A stretch of 64,000 nucleotides of DNA, taken from positions 1 to 64,000 of the forward strand of contig BOKC01000001.1 of assembly GCA_016860785.1 (NCBI GenBank), in the 5' to 3' direction. The number at the start of each line of letters is the position of its first letter. The stretch's first letter is position 1. Under the pieces are notes generated by a model. That model was not told where the DNA came from and searched no databases. It worked only from the letters and a program-made list of their open reading frames with translations. The stretch comes from Patescibacteria group bacterium. Lineage in GTDB: Bacteria; Patescibacteriota; Minisyncoccia; Phycocordibacterales; BOKC01. Both the position numbers and the translations under genes were made by a program. Shown here in pieces: positions 48,966-56,520 of this stretch.

Positions 48966-49340
48966 ATGCAATTAAATATAAAAACTTCAGGTATCAGTTT
49001 AACTCCAGAAATTTCAACTTATGTTGAAAAGAAGCTTGATGCGGTTAGAAAACTTATAAACAAAGAAGATTCCGGCGCACTCTGTGAATTTGAAGTCGGG
49101 CGAACTACTCGTCATCATAAAAGTGGAGACGTTTTCAGGGCGGAAATTAATTTGACTACAGAAGGTAAGAGCTTTTATGCAGCTTCGGAAAAAGAAGATT
49201 TGTACGCAGCGATTGACGAGGTTAAAGATGAAATAAGAAGTCGTTTATTGAGTCATAAGACCAAAAAAGAAACCCTCTTTAAAAGGGGTGGTCGGCAAAT
49301 GAAATCGTTGGTTAAAAATCTCCGTTGGCCTAAACGTTAA
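48966..49340 (+). CDS. hpf: Ribosome hibernation promoting factor (HPF/RaiA family)
   Basis: A 124-residue protein of the HPF/RaiA family. MQLNIKTSGISLTPEISTYVEKKLDAV is the family beta-alpha start (split: QLNIKTSGISLTPEIST), then SGDVFRAEINLTTEGKSFYA and the helix EDLYAAIDEVKDEIRS. It binds the 30S decoding site and stops translation in stationary phase. Only the short N-terminal domain is present, followed by a basic tail (KTKKETLFKRGGRQMKSLVK). It overlaps the end of the convergent fmt by four bases. Confidence 0.92.
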   Translation: MQLNIKTSGISLTPEISTYVEKKLDAVRKLINKEDSGALCEFEVGRTTRHHKSGDVFRAEINLTTEGKSFYAASEKEDLYAAIDEVKDEIRSRLLSHKTKKETLFKRGGRQMKSLVKNLRWPKR

Positions 49341-50167
49341 TTAGATCTTAAAAATTGTTCGTATTCTACCTCCTTTTTGCCCTCTGGCACAACCTTGTTT
49401 ATTATGAATTTTCCATCTTGTAAAGAGGTGTCTGTTATTTTTATTCTTTTATCTTTTTCAAAAAAATAAATTCCCGGGGAAGGGTGGTAGGCCAAAAACT
49501 TTCGATAGTTTAATTCCGGTTCATCGTCAAAATTGATCAAGCCGTCCTCCTTTTTAATTTTTTTGGTGTAAGTGGCGTTTTGGTGGTTTTGTTCTTGCGG
49601 TTTGATTTTGTCTGCCAGCCAATCTTTCATTGCTTCTGCTAAAAGCTGGCCACCGATTTCATTTAGTTTTTTGAAAACTTTTTCCTTGGACAAAGGCCAG
49701 TTTTCAAAATAAATTTCTTTTTGGGCCAGAATCGGTCCGTGATCCATCTTTTCGTCCATTAGCATTACCGATACTCCGGTCGGGTTGATGTTTTCCAAAA
49801 TGGCGGTTTCAACGGGCGAAGCCCCGCGCAAGTGAGGTAGTAGGGAATAGTGGAGATTTAAAACGCCTTTCTTGGGAATTTGAAGAATCTCTTTCGGTAA
49901 AATTTTTCCATAAGCGACAACGGCAAATAGGGTATAGCCACTAGGGTCTAGGGTTTTAATAAATTCGGAATCAAGTTTTTCGGGTTGTAAAACCGAAATG
50001 TTGTTGTTTTTTGCCCAGATTTTTACTGGCGGGGAAGCAAGCTTCAGACCTCGACCTTGCGGTCTGTCTGGGGAAGTTATGATAAGAGACGGTAATAAAC
50101 CTTTTGATTTTAGAATTTCCAGAATTTCAACTGACACCTGTGGAGTGCCGAAAAATATAAAGTTCAT
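49337..50167 (-). CDS. fmt: Methionyl-tRNA formyltransferase
   Basis: Formylates initiator Met-tRNA for translation initiation. The 276-residue protein has FFGTPQVSVEILEIL at the N terminus and SPDRPQGRGLKLASPPVK. The catalytic NLHYSLLPHLRGASPV (Asn, His) and MDEKMDHGPILAQ (Asp) follow. The C-terminal tRNA-binding domain is shortened (NATYTKKIKKEDGLINFDD). It is downstream of def in the same direction, the usual def-fmt pair. Formylation fits with the deformylase present. Confidence 0.95.
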   Translation of the reverse strand: MNFIFFGTPQVSVEILEILKSKGLLPSLIITSPDRPQGRGLKLASPPVKIWAKNNNISVLQPEKLDSEFIKTLDPSGYTLFAVVAYGKILPKEILQIPKKGVLNLHYSLLPHLRGASPVETAILENINPTGVSVMLMDEKMDHGPILAQKEIYFENWPLSKEKVFKKLNEIGGQLLAEAMKDWLADKIKPQEQNHQNATYTKKIKKEDGLINFDDEPELNYRKFLAYHPSPGIYFFEKDKRIKITDTSLQDGKFIINKVVPEGKKEVEYEQFLRSN

Positions 50168-50185: not shown

Positions 50186-50737
50186 TTAAGTATTTTGTTC
50201 AGGTAAGATTTCTTCAATACTCTGGGCTTTATCTATAAAAAGAATTCCATCAAGATGGTCAATTTCGTGCTGGAAAATCTGGGCTAAAAGTCCGGAAGCG
50301 CCGCGTTTGATTTTTTTACCCTTTTCGTTGTAGGCCTCTATACTGACTTTTTCAGCTCTTTTAACTTCGCCGTAAAGCCAGCGAACAGAAAGACACCCCT
50401 CTTCCATCATTTCTGTTTTTCTGGATTTTTTAATTATGACCGGATTTATATAAATTTCATCCGGTTTTTCTTTTTTTATTTTTGTGAAATCGGTTTCCAA
50501 ATCCGGATTGTTTTTTGAGAGTTCCAAAATTTGCTTAACTTTTCCGGAGACGATAAAAATTCGCCAAAGTTCTCCGATCTGCGGAGCGGCGATAGCAACG
50601 CCGTCATCTTGAGAATCAAGAGCGTCTTGCATTTTTTTAAAAACCTTCTTTATTTTTTCAGATGAGATTTCGGAAGTCGGAACCTCTTTTGATTTTTGCC
50701 TCAAGACGGGGCTTTCTTTCTGTAAAATTTTAATCAT
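50186..50737 (-). CDS. def: Peptide deformylase
   Basis: Removes the formyl group from nascent proteins; 183 residues. The three motifs are GVAIAAPQIG (near residue 46), EEGCLSV and QHEIDHLDGILF, giving the Cys and two His of the iron or zinc site. An insertion of ~25 residues between motifs 1 and 2 (KQILELSKNNPDLETDFTKI) is a little longer than usual. It is upstream of fmt. A TGA-TATATT extended -10 box ends six bases before the ATG, so the message is probably leaderless. Confidence 0.96.
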   Translation of the reverse strand: MIKILQKESPVLRQKSKEVPTSEISSEKIKKVFKKMQDALDSQDDGVAIAAPQIGELWRIFIVSGKVKQILELSKNNPDLETDFTKIKKEKPDEIYINPVIIKKSRKTEMMEEGCLSVRWLYGEVKRAEKVSIEAYNEKGKKIKRGASGLLAQIFQHEIDHLDGILFIDKAQSIEEILPEQNT

Positions 50738-50891: not shown

Positions 50892-51359
50892 TCAAGCAGT
50901 TGCTTTCTGTCGCCGGAACAGGCCCAGAAGGAATCGGGTTGAGAAGAACCCGATTCCCCAAATCGTTCCGACGCCCGGCAATGCCGTAAGCCACAGGACC
51001 CAGAACGGCTCCTTAGCCCCTTCGTTCTTGGCGGAGCTGGAGGCGACAGCAGTAATGAGGGCAACGAGGACGAGGAGGCCGACGGTGGAGATCACACTGG
51101 AGGTTGCGGTGCGGAGAGCGAGAGCGGCGATTGCGGCGGCAAAGCCGGCAAAGGCGGTGGGGTTGAGGAGGGCGAAGGTGCGAGAGGTGAGGGTGCCGGA
51201 GACGAAGTTGGCGACGAAGAGGGCGAAGGCGGTGATGTAGGCGGCGAGGGCGGCGGAGGTAGAGGCAGTTCTGAAATCGCCGGTAATGGCGTATACACCA
51301 CCCCCTACGATACACTGAAGGCCGAGTACGAACGTCGTATAGATCCACAGCTTCTTCAT
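50892..51359 (-). CDS. Four-helix membrane orphan protein (155 residues)
   Basis: Start at 51359 from GGGAG five bases upstream; the reading to 51413 would run through the leader hairpin. Helices are LWIYTTFVLGLQCIVGGGVYA, STSAALAAYITAFALFVANF, AFAGFAAAIAALALRTATSSV with VISTVGLLVLVALITAVASS, and FWVLWLTALPGVGTIWGIGFF. The Ala/Thr/Ser-rich small-residue helices and GC-rich codons differ strongly from neighbours. No family recognised. Stand-alone, with a leader hairpin and a strong terminator. Confidence 0.7.
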   Translation of the reverse strand: MKKLWIYTTFVLGLQCIVGGGVYAITGDFRTASTSAALAAYITAFALFVANFVSGTLTSRTFALLNPTAFAGFAAAIAALALRTATSSVISTVGLLVLVALITAVASSSAKNEGAKEPFWVLWLTALPGVGTIWGIGFFSTRFLLGLFRRQKATA

Positions 51360-51388
51360 TTCGTTCTCCCTTTCTTTTTTTCTCATTG

Positions 51389-51408
51389 CCGAAATCACAT
51401 GATTTCGG
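51389..51408 (-). promoter_or_regulatory. Leader hairpin or operator of the 155-residue gene
   Basis: The palindrome CCGAAATCA-CA-TGATTTCGG (plus-strand reading) lies about 30 bases upstream of the start, downstream of a TTGATA/TAAAAT promoter near 51426-51460. Confidence 0.5.
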
Positions 51409-51518
51409 AACACTTTTCACTTAAGATTTTAATAGATGTTATACGTGTTATCAAATTTAATTTTGTAAAAATTTATGACCCGAAGTTTGAAATTTGAAAT
51501 CAAAAATCTCAAACAAAA

Positions 51519-53414
51519 TTACAGAATGTTCTCCGGATCTACCTTGACCAAAAAATTAGGTGGTAACTCGCGCAGTTTTTCCACAAGTTCGCCATCAGGC
51601 CACTTTTTCGGATCTATTTTTAGGAGCACATTAATTAAGTGTTTGCCTTTAACTTTTGAAGTAAAGGCCGGATAGGAAACTAATTGATATTCAGCCATTT
51701 TTTCTTTTATTTCTTCCGCTTCTTTTTCTGCCACCGATTTTTGCGCGCTTTGAATGGTTATTTTTATAAAAAGTGAGAAGGGTGGGTAATTGAATTCTCG
51801 ACGTGCCTCAAGTTCACTTCTGTAAAAATCAATTAAATTTCCGGAAAGCAAATATTGCCAGAGTGGTAAATCCGGAAGTCTGGTCTGGATCAAAAATTTC
51901 TTTGCTGATAAATTTTTCAAGCGCAAGAGTAGTGAAAAAATTCTTTCATTGATGCGAAAATCAGGTATGGAAAATAGGGAATCAGTTGAAGCGCAAATTA
52001 CATTATCAATTTTTTTATTGAGATAAAATACCGCCATTTCATTACTAACAAGAATACTACCTGGAGTTTTCAAGAAATCAGATATTATTTTTACCGCTTG
52101 TTTGCCAGTTCTAGCTTTTTCTTTGTCTAGTCGGAAAACCGAAGCTTTGGGGTAGGTCTTTTTTATTTCTTTCTCCAAAGCTTCCAGCCCGACACCAAAG
52201 CCCTGGATTCTCCACCCTCCGCAATTTTTGCATTTGTCCACCGCTTTCTTTTTTAGCCCGCATTTGTGGCAAGAAATCTTTCTTTCATTATTTTCTTCAT
52301 GAAGAACAATTGGAGCCGAGCAGTTGGAGCACTCCATTATTTGACCGCAGTCAAGACAGGACAAAAGCGGAGACAGACCCTTGCGCGCGCCGAAGACAAA
52401 AGTTGTTTCTTTGTTTTTTTGTGATTCTTCAAGGATATCTTTAGCTGTATTAGACAAAAGAGAAAACTCTTTCTCTTTTGTCTCTTTTTCTCTATCTCTT
52501 AAATCCACAAGGTTTTGATTGGCATTGGTTAAAATTCTAAATTTAAGCGGTATCAATTCTGAAAAATCCAAATTTTCTTGTCGCCAGAGAGTTTCAGTTC
52601 TTAAGAAAAAATCGCCGAACAAAAGCCGTATTCCAAGCTTTTTTGAAAAAATCTCGGCAAAAGTTCTGATATCAAGATACGGCCGACGCAGGTCTTTGTA
52701 TGCCGAAGAGTTCTCCCTCTCAACAATCATGGTTCCAAAATCACTTCTCGGTAGATACATAAATTGCGCAGTGGTTATGATTAGAACCGGGTGTTTCAAA
52801 GACACTGCTGTGTTCCAATTCTTTTCAATTTCTTTGCCTGTCATTGAGCCGTTGAAACAAAAAACAAAGTTCTCTATGCCTTTCTCAAGAATTTTTTTAG
52901 AGCGATTCAACTCTTCTATGGTGGGGACGATAAAAATTACAGAAAGATTTTTGGCAAACTCTTCTCGTATCAAATTTCTGTAAGTTGAAAATCTTTCATC
53001 TTCGCCGGCTTGCAGTAGCAGTTTTTCATGACGGTCTCTCGGGCTGTCTTTGTTGGTGTTTAAAATTTTCAACTTATCGGCTCTCTCTAATGTTTGTTTT
53101 GAGACAAGGTTGTTTAAAATCGCGCCGGTTGAAGATGCGAAATAATTACCGGCTTCTTCCACACTTTCTACAAAAGCCGTCGGTAAAAATTTCTTTACTT
53201 TTACCGATTTTATTTTTTTTACCGCAAAATCAGCTTTTTTAAGTTGGCTTTTTATTTCAATCACCTTCGTTTTGCCGGAAACCAAAGCTTTCACTGTTTT
53301 CCTTCTTAAGGGAACTTCAACGATTGCTCCAAGTGGAATATCTTTGTTGCTAAAGTAGGTTAATTTCTCTTTTAAGATGCCTTTGGCGATGGGAATGACT
53401 TCGATCGTATACAT
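51519..53414 (-). CDS. priA: PriA-like primosomal protein with degenerate helicase motifs
   Basis: A 631-residue protein colinear with PriA. The N-terminal DNA-binding domain is MYTIEVIPIAKGILKEKLTYF with GAIVEVPLRRKTVKALV. The zinc region has eight cysteines (CLDCGQIMECSNC and CHKCGLKK with CKNCGG). The C-terminal domain includes LEARREFNYPPF. Yet the ATPase motifs are gone: the Walker A position reads LLLQAGEDERFSTY instead of GxTGSGKT, motif II reads IVERENSS for DEEH, motif V ILVSNEMAVFYLNK for GTQMIAKGHDF, and motif VI KNLSAKK for QxxGRxGR. The reading frame is intact and 631 residues long, so it probably has a structural rather than helicase role in restart. Leaderless -10 box upstream. 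Confidence 0.85.
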   Translation of the reverse strand: MYTIEVIPIAKGILKEKLTYFSNKDIPLGAIVEVPLRRKTVKALVSGKTKVIEIKSQLKKADFAVKKIKSVKVKKFLPTAFVESVEEAGNYFASSTGAILNNLVSKQTLERADKLKILNTNKDSPRDRHEKLLLQAGEDERFSTYRNLIREEFAKNLSVIFIVPTIEELNRSKKILEKGIENFVFCFNGSMTGKEIEKNWNTAVSLKHPVLIITTAQFMYLPRSDFGTMIVERENSSAYKDLRRPYLDIRTFAEIFSKKLGIRLLFGDFFLRTETLWRQENLDFSELIPLKFRILTNANQNLVDLRDREKETKEKEFSLLSNTAKDILEESQKNKETTFVFGARKGLSPLLSCLDCGQIMECSNCSAPIVLHEENNERKISCHKCGLKKKAVDKCKNCGGWRIQGFGVGLEALEKEIKKTYPKASVFRLDKEKARTGKQAVKIISDFLKTPGSILVSNEMAVFYLNKKIDNVICASTDSLFSIPDFRINERIFSLLLRLKNLSAKKFLIQTRLPDLPLWQYLLSGNLIDFYRSELEARREFNYPPFSLFIKITIQSAQKSVAEKEAEEIKEKMAEYQLVSYPAFTSKVKGKHLINVLLKIDPKKWPDGELVEKLRELPPNFLVKVDPENIL

Positions 53415-55836: not shown

Positions 55837-56520
55837 ATGTCTTCGGTTTTAAATTTGAAAAAACACCATGCTTATTTGGTTTTGTCGGTAAACGGCAATG
55901 GTTTGGAGTTGTTGAAAAAAATTGTTCAGTCTGGTTTGGATATTGAGACTACGGGTAATCCTGACTATTGGGAAAAACAAATTGAAACCTTTGGTATAGA
56001 TGATAGCCGAGATTTGAAAAGGATATATTTAAGTCGGGCTTTAAAAGAAAACAACCCTAAGGTTATTTTGGTAAAGACCTCTTTTATAACTACTGAAGCT
56101 CAAAATGCGCTTTTGAAAATTCTTGAGGATCCCAGTCCGCAGACCTTTTTCTTTTTTTTGATGCCCTCAAAAGAAGGTCTTATCCCGACTTTGTTGTCGC
56201 GTTTTATGGTTTTGGAAAAAGCGATAGTGGGAGAAGAAGAAAAACCCCCACTCGATCCAGAGATTTTTTTGAGTTTAAGTGTTCCGGCTAGATTAAAATC
56301 AGTAGCTAAAATTATTGCAGTTAAAGACAGGGCGGTGGCCGAAAAAGCAATTGATGCCTTGGAAACCTGTCTTTATAGAAAAGTTGATTGGCTGTCTTTA
56401 GATTTAAAACAAGCCGAAATATTTAAAATATTTGCTGAAAGTCGGAATTATTTGCGAAGCCGTGGTGGTTCAATAAAGCTCGTTCTAGAAAATCTATGCT
56501 TGGTTTTGCCGAAAGTCTGA
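55837..56520 (+). CDS. holB: DNA polymerase III delta-prime-like subunit
   Basis: A 227-residue AAA+-like clamp-loader protein. The characteristic segment is TEAQNALLKILEDPSPQTFFFFL followed by LIPTLLSRFMVL (split: AQNALLKILEDPSPQTFFFF). The N-terminal P-loop is not visible; in this position the protein has HHAYLVLSVNGNGLELLKKI. Delta-prime subunits are often ATPase-inactive. The protein is shorter than the usual ~330, lacking most of the C-terminal oligomerisation domain. It may be an unusual or minimal clamp-loader subunit. It is six bases from mreB. Confidence 0.8.
   Translation: MSSVLNLKKHHAYLVLSVNGNGLELLKKIVQSGLDIETTGNPDYWEKQIETFGIDDSRDLKRIYLSRALKENNPKVILVKTSFITTEAQNALLKILEDPSPQTFFFFLMPSKEGLIPTLLSRFMVLEKAIVGEEEKPPLDPEIFLSLSVPARLKSVAKIIAVKDRAVAEKAIDALETCLYRKVDWLSLDLKQAEIFKIFAESRNYLRSRGGSIKLVLENLCLVLPKV

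Follow-up and report, generated by a model that had tools for sequence, protein, structure and literature searches.

Is a PriA that has lost every motif of its helicase motor still a PriA, and for what role would selection keep it? This is the question raised by a gene on the minus strand of the window, by which we mean the whole 64,000-nucleotide stretch of DNA that was analysed. A sequence-only reading of this gene had claimed that the Walker A, DEEH, motif V and motif VI positions can be aligned with those of PriA and are all replaced, while eight zinc-binding cysteines and the terminal domains persist over 631 intact residues. The features on which the argument depends are as follows.

51519-53414, minus strand: priA pseudohelicase gene, 631 amino acids (profile, PDB sequence and fold matches)
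53085-53414, minus strand: 3′ DNA-binding domain (3′BD), about residues 1-110 (PF17764, E 5e-4, slightly under the cut-off; AlphaFold2 strands)
52515-53024, minus strand: former helicase lobe 1, about residues 131-300, motifs I-III replaced (alignment, AlphaFold2; no DEAD or ResIII match)
52974-53009, minus strand: former Walker A, residues 136-147 (AGEDERFSTYRN), with R141 in the column of E. coli K230 (alignment, AlphaFold2)
52710-52721, minus strand: former Walker B / DEEH, residues 232-235, EREN (alignment)
52209-52382, minus strand: cysteine-rich region (CRR) with two predicted Zn sites, about residues 345-402 (alignment)
51825-52208, minus strand: former helicase lobe 2, about residues 403-530, motifs V-VI replaced (alignment; no Helicase_C match)
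51519-51824, minus strand: PriA C-terminal domain (CTD), about residues 531-631, and stop (PF18074, E 5.5e-4, slightly under the cut-off; AlphaFold2)
50892-51413, minus strand: 173-amino-acid ORF between priA and def, no family match
50186-50737, minus strand: def (peptide deformylase), conserved priA neighbour (TIGR00079)
49337-50167, minus strand: fmt (methionyl-tRNA formyltransferase), conserved priA neighbour (TIGR00460)

The reading frame begins with ATG and runs through 631 uninterrupted codons, with its stop inside 51519-53414. Its product shows full-length similarity to the NCBIfam profile NF004066 (E 6e-66), matches TIGR00595 (E 6e-63) and is covered by NF004069 over residues 14-601, with all three matches falling below the curated cut-offs. 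A PDB sequence search returned PriA entries only (4nl4, E 3e-24), and among named relatives the closest come from MAGs of Candidatus Paceibacter (68% identity) and Candidatus Nomurabacteria (38%), which places the window in Patescibacteria, class Paceibacteria. A PriA-profile search found no second PriA in the 574-kb, 91.6%-complete genome to which the window belongs; the other TIGR00595 matches of this genome, UvrB (C1:127930) and RecG (C4:10678-11571), were considered as second copies and are not PriA. The gene lies upstream of def and fmt, with one ORF without a family match between them, and def and/or fmt flank most of the pseudo-priA loci of the order as well as many canonical patescibacterial priA loci. 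This common flanking argues for vertical descent and not for a divergent paralogue. Because the gene is the only detectable PriA of its genome and sits in the conserved priA-x-def-fmt neighbourhood, the window protein is a true PriA orthologue. The intervening ORF has a GTG start and encodes a hydrophobic, membrane-like protein that matches neither Pfam nor NCBIfam, and on the other side of priA a short, 227-amino-acid HolB-like DNA polymerase III delta′ (55837-56520, plus strand), well under its family cut-off, follows mreB.

The state of the motor was assessed in an alignment of 121 PriAs including that of E. coli, with 58 sequences from the order (the window protein and 57 others) and 30 canonical patescibacterial sequences. 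From E. coli to the window protein, motif I changes from GVTGSGKT to QAGEDERF, motif II from DEEH to EREN, motif III from SATP to DFFL and motif V from GTQMLAKG to SNEMAVFY, and the GRAGR of motif VI is gone; all five motifs are likewise replaced in the other 57 members of the order. Because motif I aligns without a gap, the loss represents substitution in place and not deletion. The column of the catalytic lysine, E. coli K230, holds Arg in 58/58 sequences of the order, where it is R141 of the window protein; all 30 canonical patescibacterial sequences have Lys there. At position two of DEEH, Glu is found in 30/30 canonical proteins and mostly Arg or Lys in the order, and SATP has become D-x-x-L. 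Certain neighbours of the motifs survive in the order, namely the Tyr that follows motif I, the Glu at position three of DEEH (E234) and, in most members, the G-T of motif V, whose K-G is lost; the window protein itself has S-N at this place. The claim that every helicase motif was lost is therefore correct in that all motifs, including motif III, are replaced, but the change was one of substitution in place, and the order has kept some of the residues beside the motifs.

A search of the whole window protein for Walker A, DExH, SATP or GRxGR strings finds none. Its sole GKT, at residue 47, lies inside the 3′BD and is not a missed ATP site, and the alignment recovers no site that the first reading had overlooked. 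The Pfam scan finds no DEAD, ResIII or Helicase_C domain, whereas a canonical patescibacterial PriA is matched by all three (E 1e-11 to 1e-16). Judged by motifs I, II, III, V and VI, the window protein does not qualify as an active helicase, and by analogy with the PriAs of D. radiodurans and E. coli it is expected to be without ATPase activity.

The remainder of the protein is kept. AlphaFold2 places strands of the 3′BD at residues 2-8, 18-22, 30-36 and 39-50; all eight cysteines of the CRR are present (C353, C356, C362, C365, C382, C385, C395 and C398), and the CTD follows, so that this part of the sequence-only reading is borne out. The Pfam matches to the 3′BD, PriA_C and Zn-ribbon are weak. 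Because the 3′BD, CRR and CTD all score under the Pfam cut-offs, the partner surfaces of the protein may have changed. The Zn1 cysteines (E. coli 436, 439, 476 and 479) are present in 58/58 PriAs of the order and the Zn2 cysteines in 53-54/58, with all eight found in approximately 90% of the sequences. Five PriAs of the order (L068, L085, L088, L118 and L125) have just four or five CRR cysteines; the Zn2 four are largely lost together while Zn1 stays, and the two zinc sites are therefore separable. A winged-helix domain is absent from the window protein and also from canonical patescibacterial PriA, and its loss is thus not a hallmark of the pseudohelicase.

An AlphaFold2 model built on 56 sequences of the order (pLDDT 90.5, pTM 0.89) predicts with confidence a complete PriA fold, with the 3′BD, two RecA-like lobes, the CRR inserted in lobe 2, and the CTD. 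The nine best Foldseek matches of this model are all PriA, and the best is the fork-bound E. coli PriA 8fak_H (TM 0.83, 17% identity). This match should not be taken as a sign of a locked 'on' state because the model of a canonical control yields the same best match, 8fak (TM 0.89). In lobe 1, the helix that follows the first strand begins at the P-loop lysine, K154, in the control and at residue 138 in the window model, three residues before R141. According to the model, this early start would mean that a tight turn has replaced the P-loop.

Open frames are found in all 58 priA sequences of the order that were used. Among 24 within-genus pairs, many of which are dS-saturated, 16 have a finite dS, and the median dN/dS of these 16 is about 0.1; where dS is below 1, in three pairs, the values are 0.109, 0.034 and 0.078. 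Between the window and its congener dS is saturated, with dN 0.216 and pS 0.76, and their identity in priA (69%) is comparable to that in def (69%) and fmt (67%). Relative to the gene mean, dN is 0.85x in the dead lobe 1 and 0.85x in lobe 2. Seven residues are invariant in the order family (R141, D248, C353, C356, C395, C398 and R538), and E234, Y145, R150, R244-P245 and R250 are nearly so. The priA of the order is under purifying selection. It is not decaying: its frames are open, its dN/dS is near 0.1, and the rate of lobe 1 does not exceed that of the other parts. The open frames together with dN/dS rule out a pseudogene. A second, normal priA beside a relaxed copy would have spoken against the first reading; what the genome holds is a sole detectable copy under purifying selection.

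The loss extends across the order and is conserved. In a TIGR00595 search, 247 genomes of the order yielded no canonical PriA (best score 267 bits), and among the order matches listed, nearly all start past the Walker A part of the profile. Phylum-wide, 88/287 genomes reach at least 430 bits with TIGR00595, and the motif-bearing examples that were inspected are canonical. With an alignment-based profile, a PriA-like match of any kind occurs in 163/287 genomes of the phylum; approximately 124 genomes, many of them near-complete, have none. Many Patescibacteria are therefore without a recognisable PriA, which appears, from these searches, to have been lost or to have changed beyond recognition in many of their lineages. 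Three near-complete genomes of the order (G025, G027 and G058) also have no detectable PriA, and PriA function is therefore dispensable. Reduced forms occur as well. In family f82, five genomes (G067, G089, G107, G125 and G167) carry PriA-like ORFs of about 310-330 amino acids with lobe 2, CRR and CTD alone; two of these ORFs, and a related match in G139, have one in-frame stop each. It is possible that the short ORFs are half-PriAs or decaying copies. A 281-amino-acid ORF of the same order (G028:C1:3935-4297) matches the N-terminal region of PriA alone (query 1-121) and is possibly a PriA reduced to its 3′BD.

The PriAs of the order form one clade in both of our trees (support 99 and 100), and one loss at or before its ancestor therefore suffices. 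The pseudohelicase state is most likely as old as the last common ancestor of this Paceibacteria order, or older. L090, from another order of the same class (G337), keeps GKT, DEEQ, SATP and GRTGR with the odd changes GPAAAGKT and TKNW, and may represent an ancestral state or a transfer. An earlier tree suggested a single loss for all motorless patescibacterial PriAs, and it was built without close canonical relatives. When the canonical members of family f132 were included, the motorless L099 clustered with these members of its own family (100), and a single clade of all motorless proteins was rejected (AU p = 0.0009). These placements indicate that at least one further patescibacterial lineage shed its PriA motor independently. 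Both trees come from quick searches and have long branches, and the number of losses in the phylum is therefore best given cautiously as two or more.

What, then, does the motorless protein do? In D. radiodurans, PriA has no ATPase or helicase activity and binds ssDNA, forks and DnaB, and this species has no clear PriB and DnaT (PMC4504706). In E. coli, K230R abolishes the ATPase and leaves PriA primosome-competent (PMC4504706), the ATPase-dead K230A, together with PriB, DnaT and DnaC, still loads DnaB in vitro (PMC10175261), and in fork-bound PriA a pore formed by the CRR, lobe 2 and CTD opens around the lagging-strand ssDNA (PMC10175261). By analogy with these two proteins, fork binding and recruitment of DnaB can be expected of the window PriA, and we consider the best explanation, with a probability of roughly 0.7, to be that it is a fork-binding, ATP-independent scaffold that reloads the DnaB helicase. 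The earlier suggestion of selection for a role without ATP use is supported by the order-wide loss, the purifying selection, the absence of a second PriA in its genome and the complete predicted fold. Most likely, the motorless PriA would recognise abandoned forks and D-loops through its 3′BD, two inert RecA-like lobes, CRR and CTD; the lagging-strand ssDNA would probably thread the CRR/lobe 2/CTD pore, as in E. coli PriA, and the protein would serve as a platform to which DnaB is recruited without ATP. A motorless PriA cannot unwind the nascent lagging strand and would therefore be limited to places where lagging-strand ssDNA is already exposed or where a second helicase has first cleared the nascent strand; RecG, present in its own genome, could be such a helicase.

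DnaB is present in 19/21 genomes of the order; the DnaB that goes with the window PriA lies at G000 C3:14846-15616. In the same 21 genomes (G000-G020), no clear homologue of DciA was found, the one sub-threshold match being 120 amino acids long (G003), and no DciA lies at the dnaA locus of the window's own genome. A DnaD-type loader gave no matches in these 21 genomes. Nearly all of the DnaC/DnaI-type matches resemble cross-matches to DnaA by ORF size and position, and one, in G013, is a true IstB. A standard DnaB loader, that is, a clear DciA, DnaC/DnaI or DnaD, was thus not recognised in G000-G020. In a bolder reading, which we hold to be rather unlikely, the motorless PriA would for this reason be the main, ATP-independent DnaB recruiter at the forks of the order, perhaps the sole dedicated one, and its former ATP pocket would have been rebuilt around the invariant R141 into a conserved site for a partner or DNA.

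The same missing partners could be read in another way. The PriA fold may have been kept while the protein left replication restart, with the pocket (R141, E234 and D248) and the lobes serving as a scaffold for another DNA or RNA job, such as that of a recombination or repair adaptor, and the lineage-specific residues that replace the motifs (R141, D248, R250, Y145 and R244-P245) would suit such a role. However, the fork- and primosome-binding parts, 3′BD, CRR and CTD, and the predicted fold are retained, and D. radiodurans PriA shed its motor yet kept fork and DnaB binding (PMC4504706), which makes this reading improbable. We see little chance that the pocket is an unorthodox nucleotide site that binds without canonical hydrolysis and acts as a conformational switch, with R141 in place of Lys. 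Although R141 is invariant in the former catalytic-lysine column, E234 is nearly so, and Deinococcus-Thermus PriA has the same Lys to Arg change at this place (PMC4504706), the P-loop glycines are gone, the modelled helix starts early with a tight turn for the loop, the motif VI arginines and the motif II Glu are lost, and K230R kills the ATPase of E. coli PriA (PMC4504706). Least credible, and already largely refuted by the dN/dS analysis, is a slowly decaying relic without importance: the order family has diverged further (mean column identity 37%, vs 48% phylum-wide for canonical PriA), PriA is missing from some genomes of the order, and broken or truncated copies occur in certain other lineages of Patescibacteria, but the 58 open frames, the low dN/dS, a lobe 1 that is no faster, the invariant Zn1 cysteines and R141, and a priA as conserved as def and fmt all speak against it.

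The helicase activity of PriA is usually presented as an advantage in replication restart. If the protein is the ATP-independent scaffold that we favour, an order-wide, selected, motorless PriA, together with a further loss in the phylum and the case of Deinococcus-Thermus, would indicate that fork recognition and helicase recruitment, and not unwinding, are the selected part. The PriAs of the order would then be natural separation-of-function proteins for asking which steps of helicase reloading need ATP, and such tests would fall in bacteria without a recognised standard DnaB loader.

Among known systems, actinobacterial PriA (PRK14873/NF011451-NF011455 models) is annotated without helicase motifs. 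Four of these five models match the window protein (E 1e-11 to 1e-18), far more weakly than other PriA models do. With canonical PriA (E. coli and the patescibacterial L052), it shares the domain order 3′BD-lobe 1-lobe 2 with CRR-CTD, the eight cysteines and the fold, and, with many canonical patescibacterial PriAs, the priA-def-fmt neighbourhood; canonical PriA differs in keeping GxTGSGKT, DEEH, SATP, TQMxxKG and GRxGR and its helicase Pfam matches, of which the window protein has none. As in the E. coli K230A and K230R proteins, the fold and primosome assembly would not depend on ATP hydrolysis, a likeness that for the window PriA is drawn from the model and by analogy; the E. coli proteins, however, are engineered single substitutions in a host that has PriB, DnaT and DnaC. 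The closest parallel in kind is D. radiodurans PriA. This orthologue has lost Walker A/B, with the motif I Lys changed to Arg (PMC4504706), and the window protein is a pseudohelicase in this manner, that is, an orthologue with an inactivated ATP site, under selection and in sole copy. An ATP-dead PriA is therefore already known from Deinococcus, and the view that the window protein would be a clear departure from known PriA biochemistry does not stand, because the D. radiodurans pseudohelicase (PMC4504706) and E. coli K230A (PMC10175261) precede it. There are differences: the D. radiodurans study stresses motifs I and II, whereas here motifs III, V and VI have been replaced as well; the window family has new conserved residues specific to the order; and D. 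radiodurans PriA was measured, whereas the window PriA is known from sequence. Because Deinococcus belongs to a different phylum, its motor loss is, by distance, separate from that of the order. A literature search that covered few subscription journals found no paper on an ATP-dead PriA in Patescibacteria. The apparent novelty lies in the lineage, in the completeness with which the motifs are replaced, in the conserved residues that stand in their place and in the lack of recognisable loaders; the order-wide fixation and the second independent loss in the phylum can be added.
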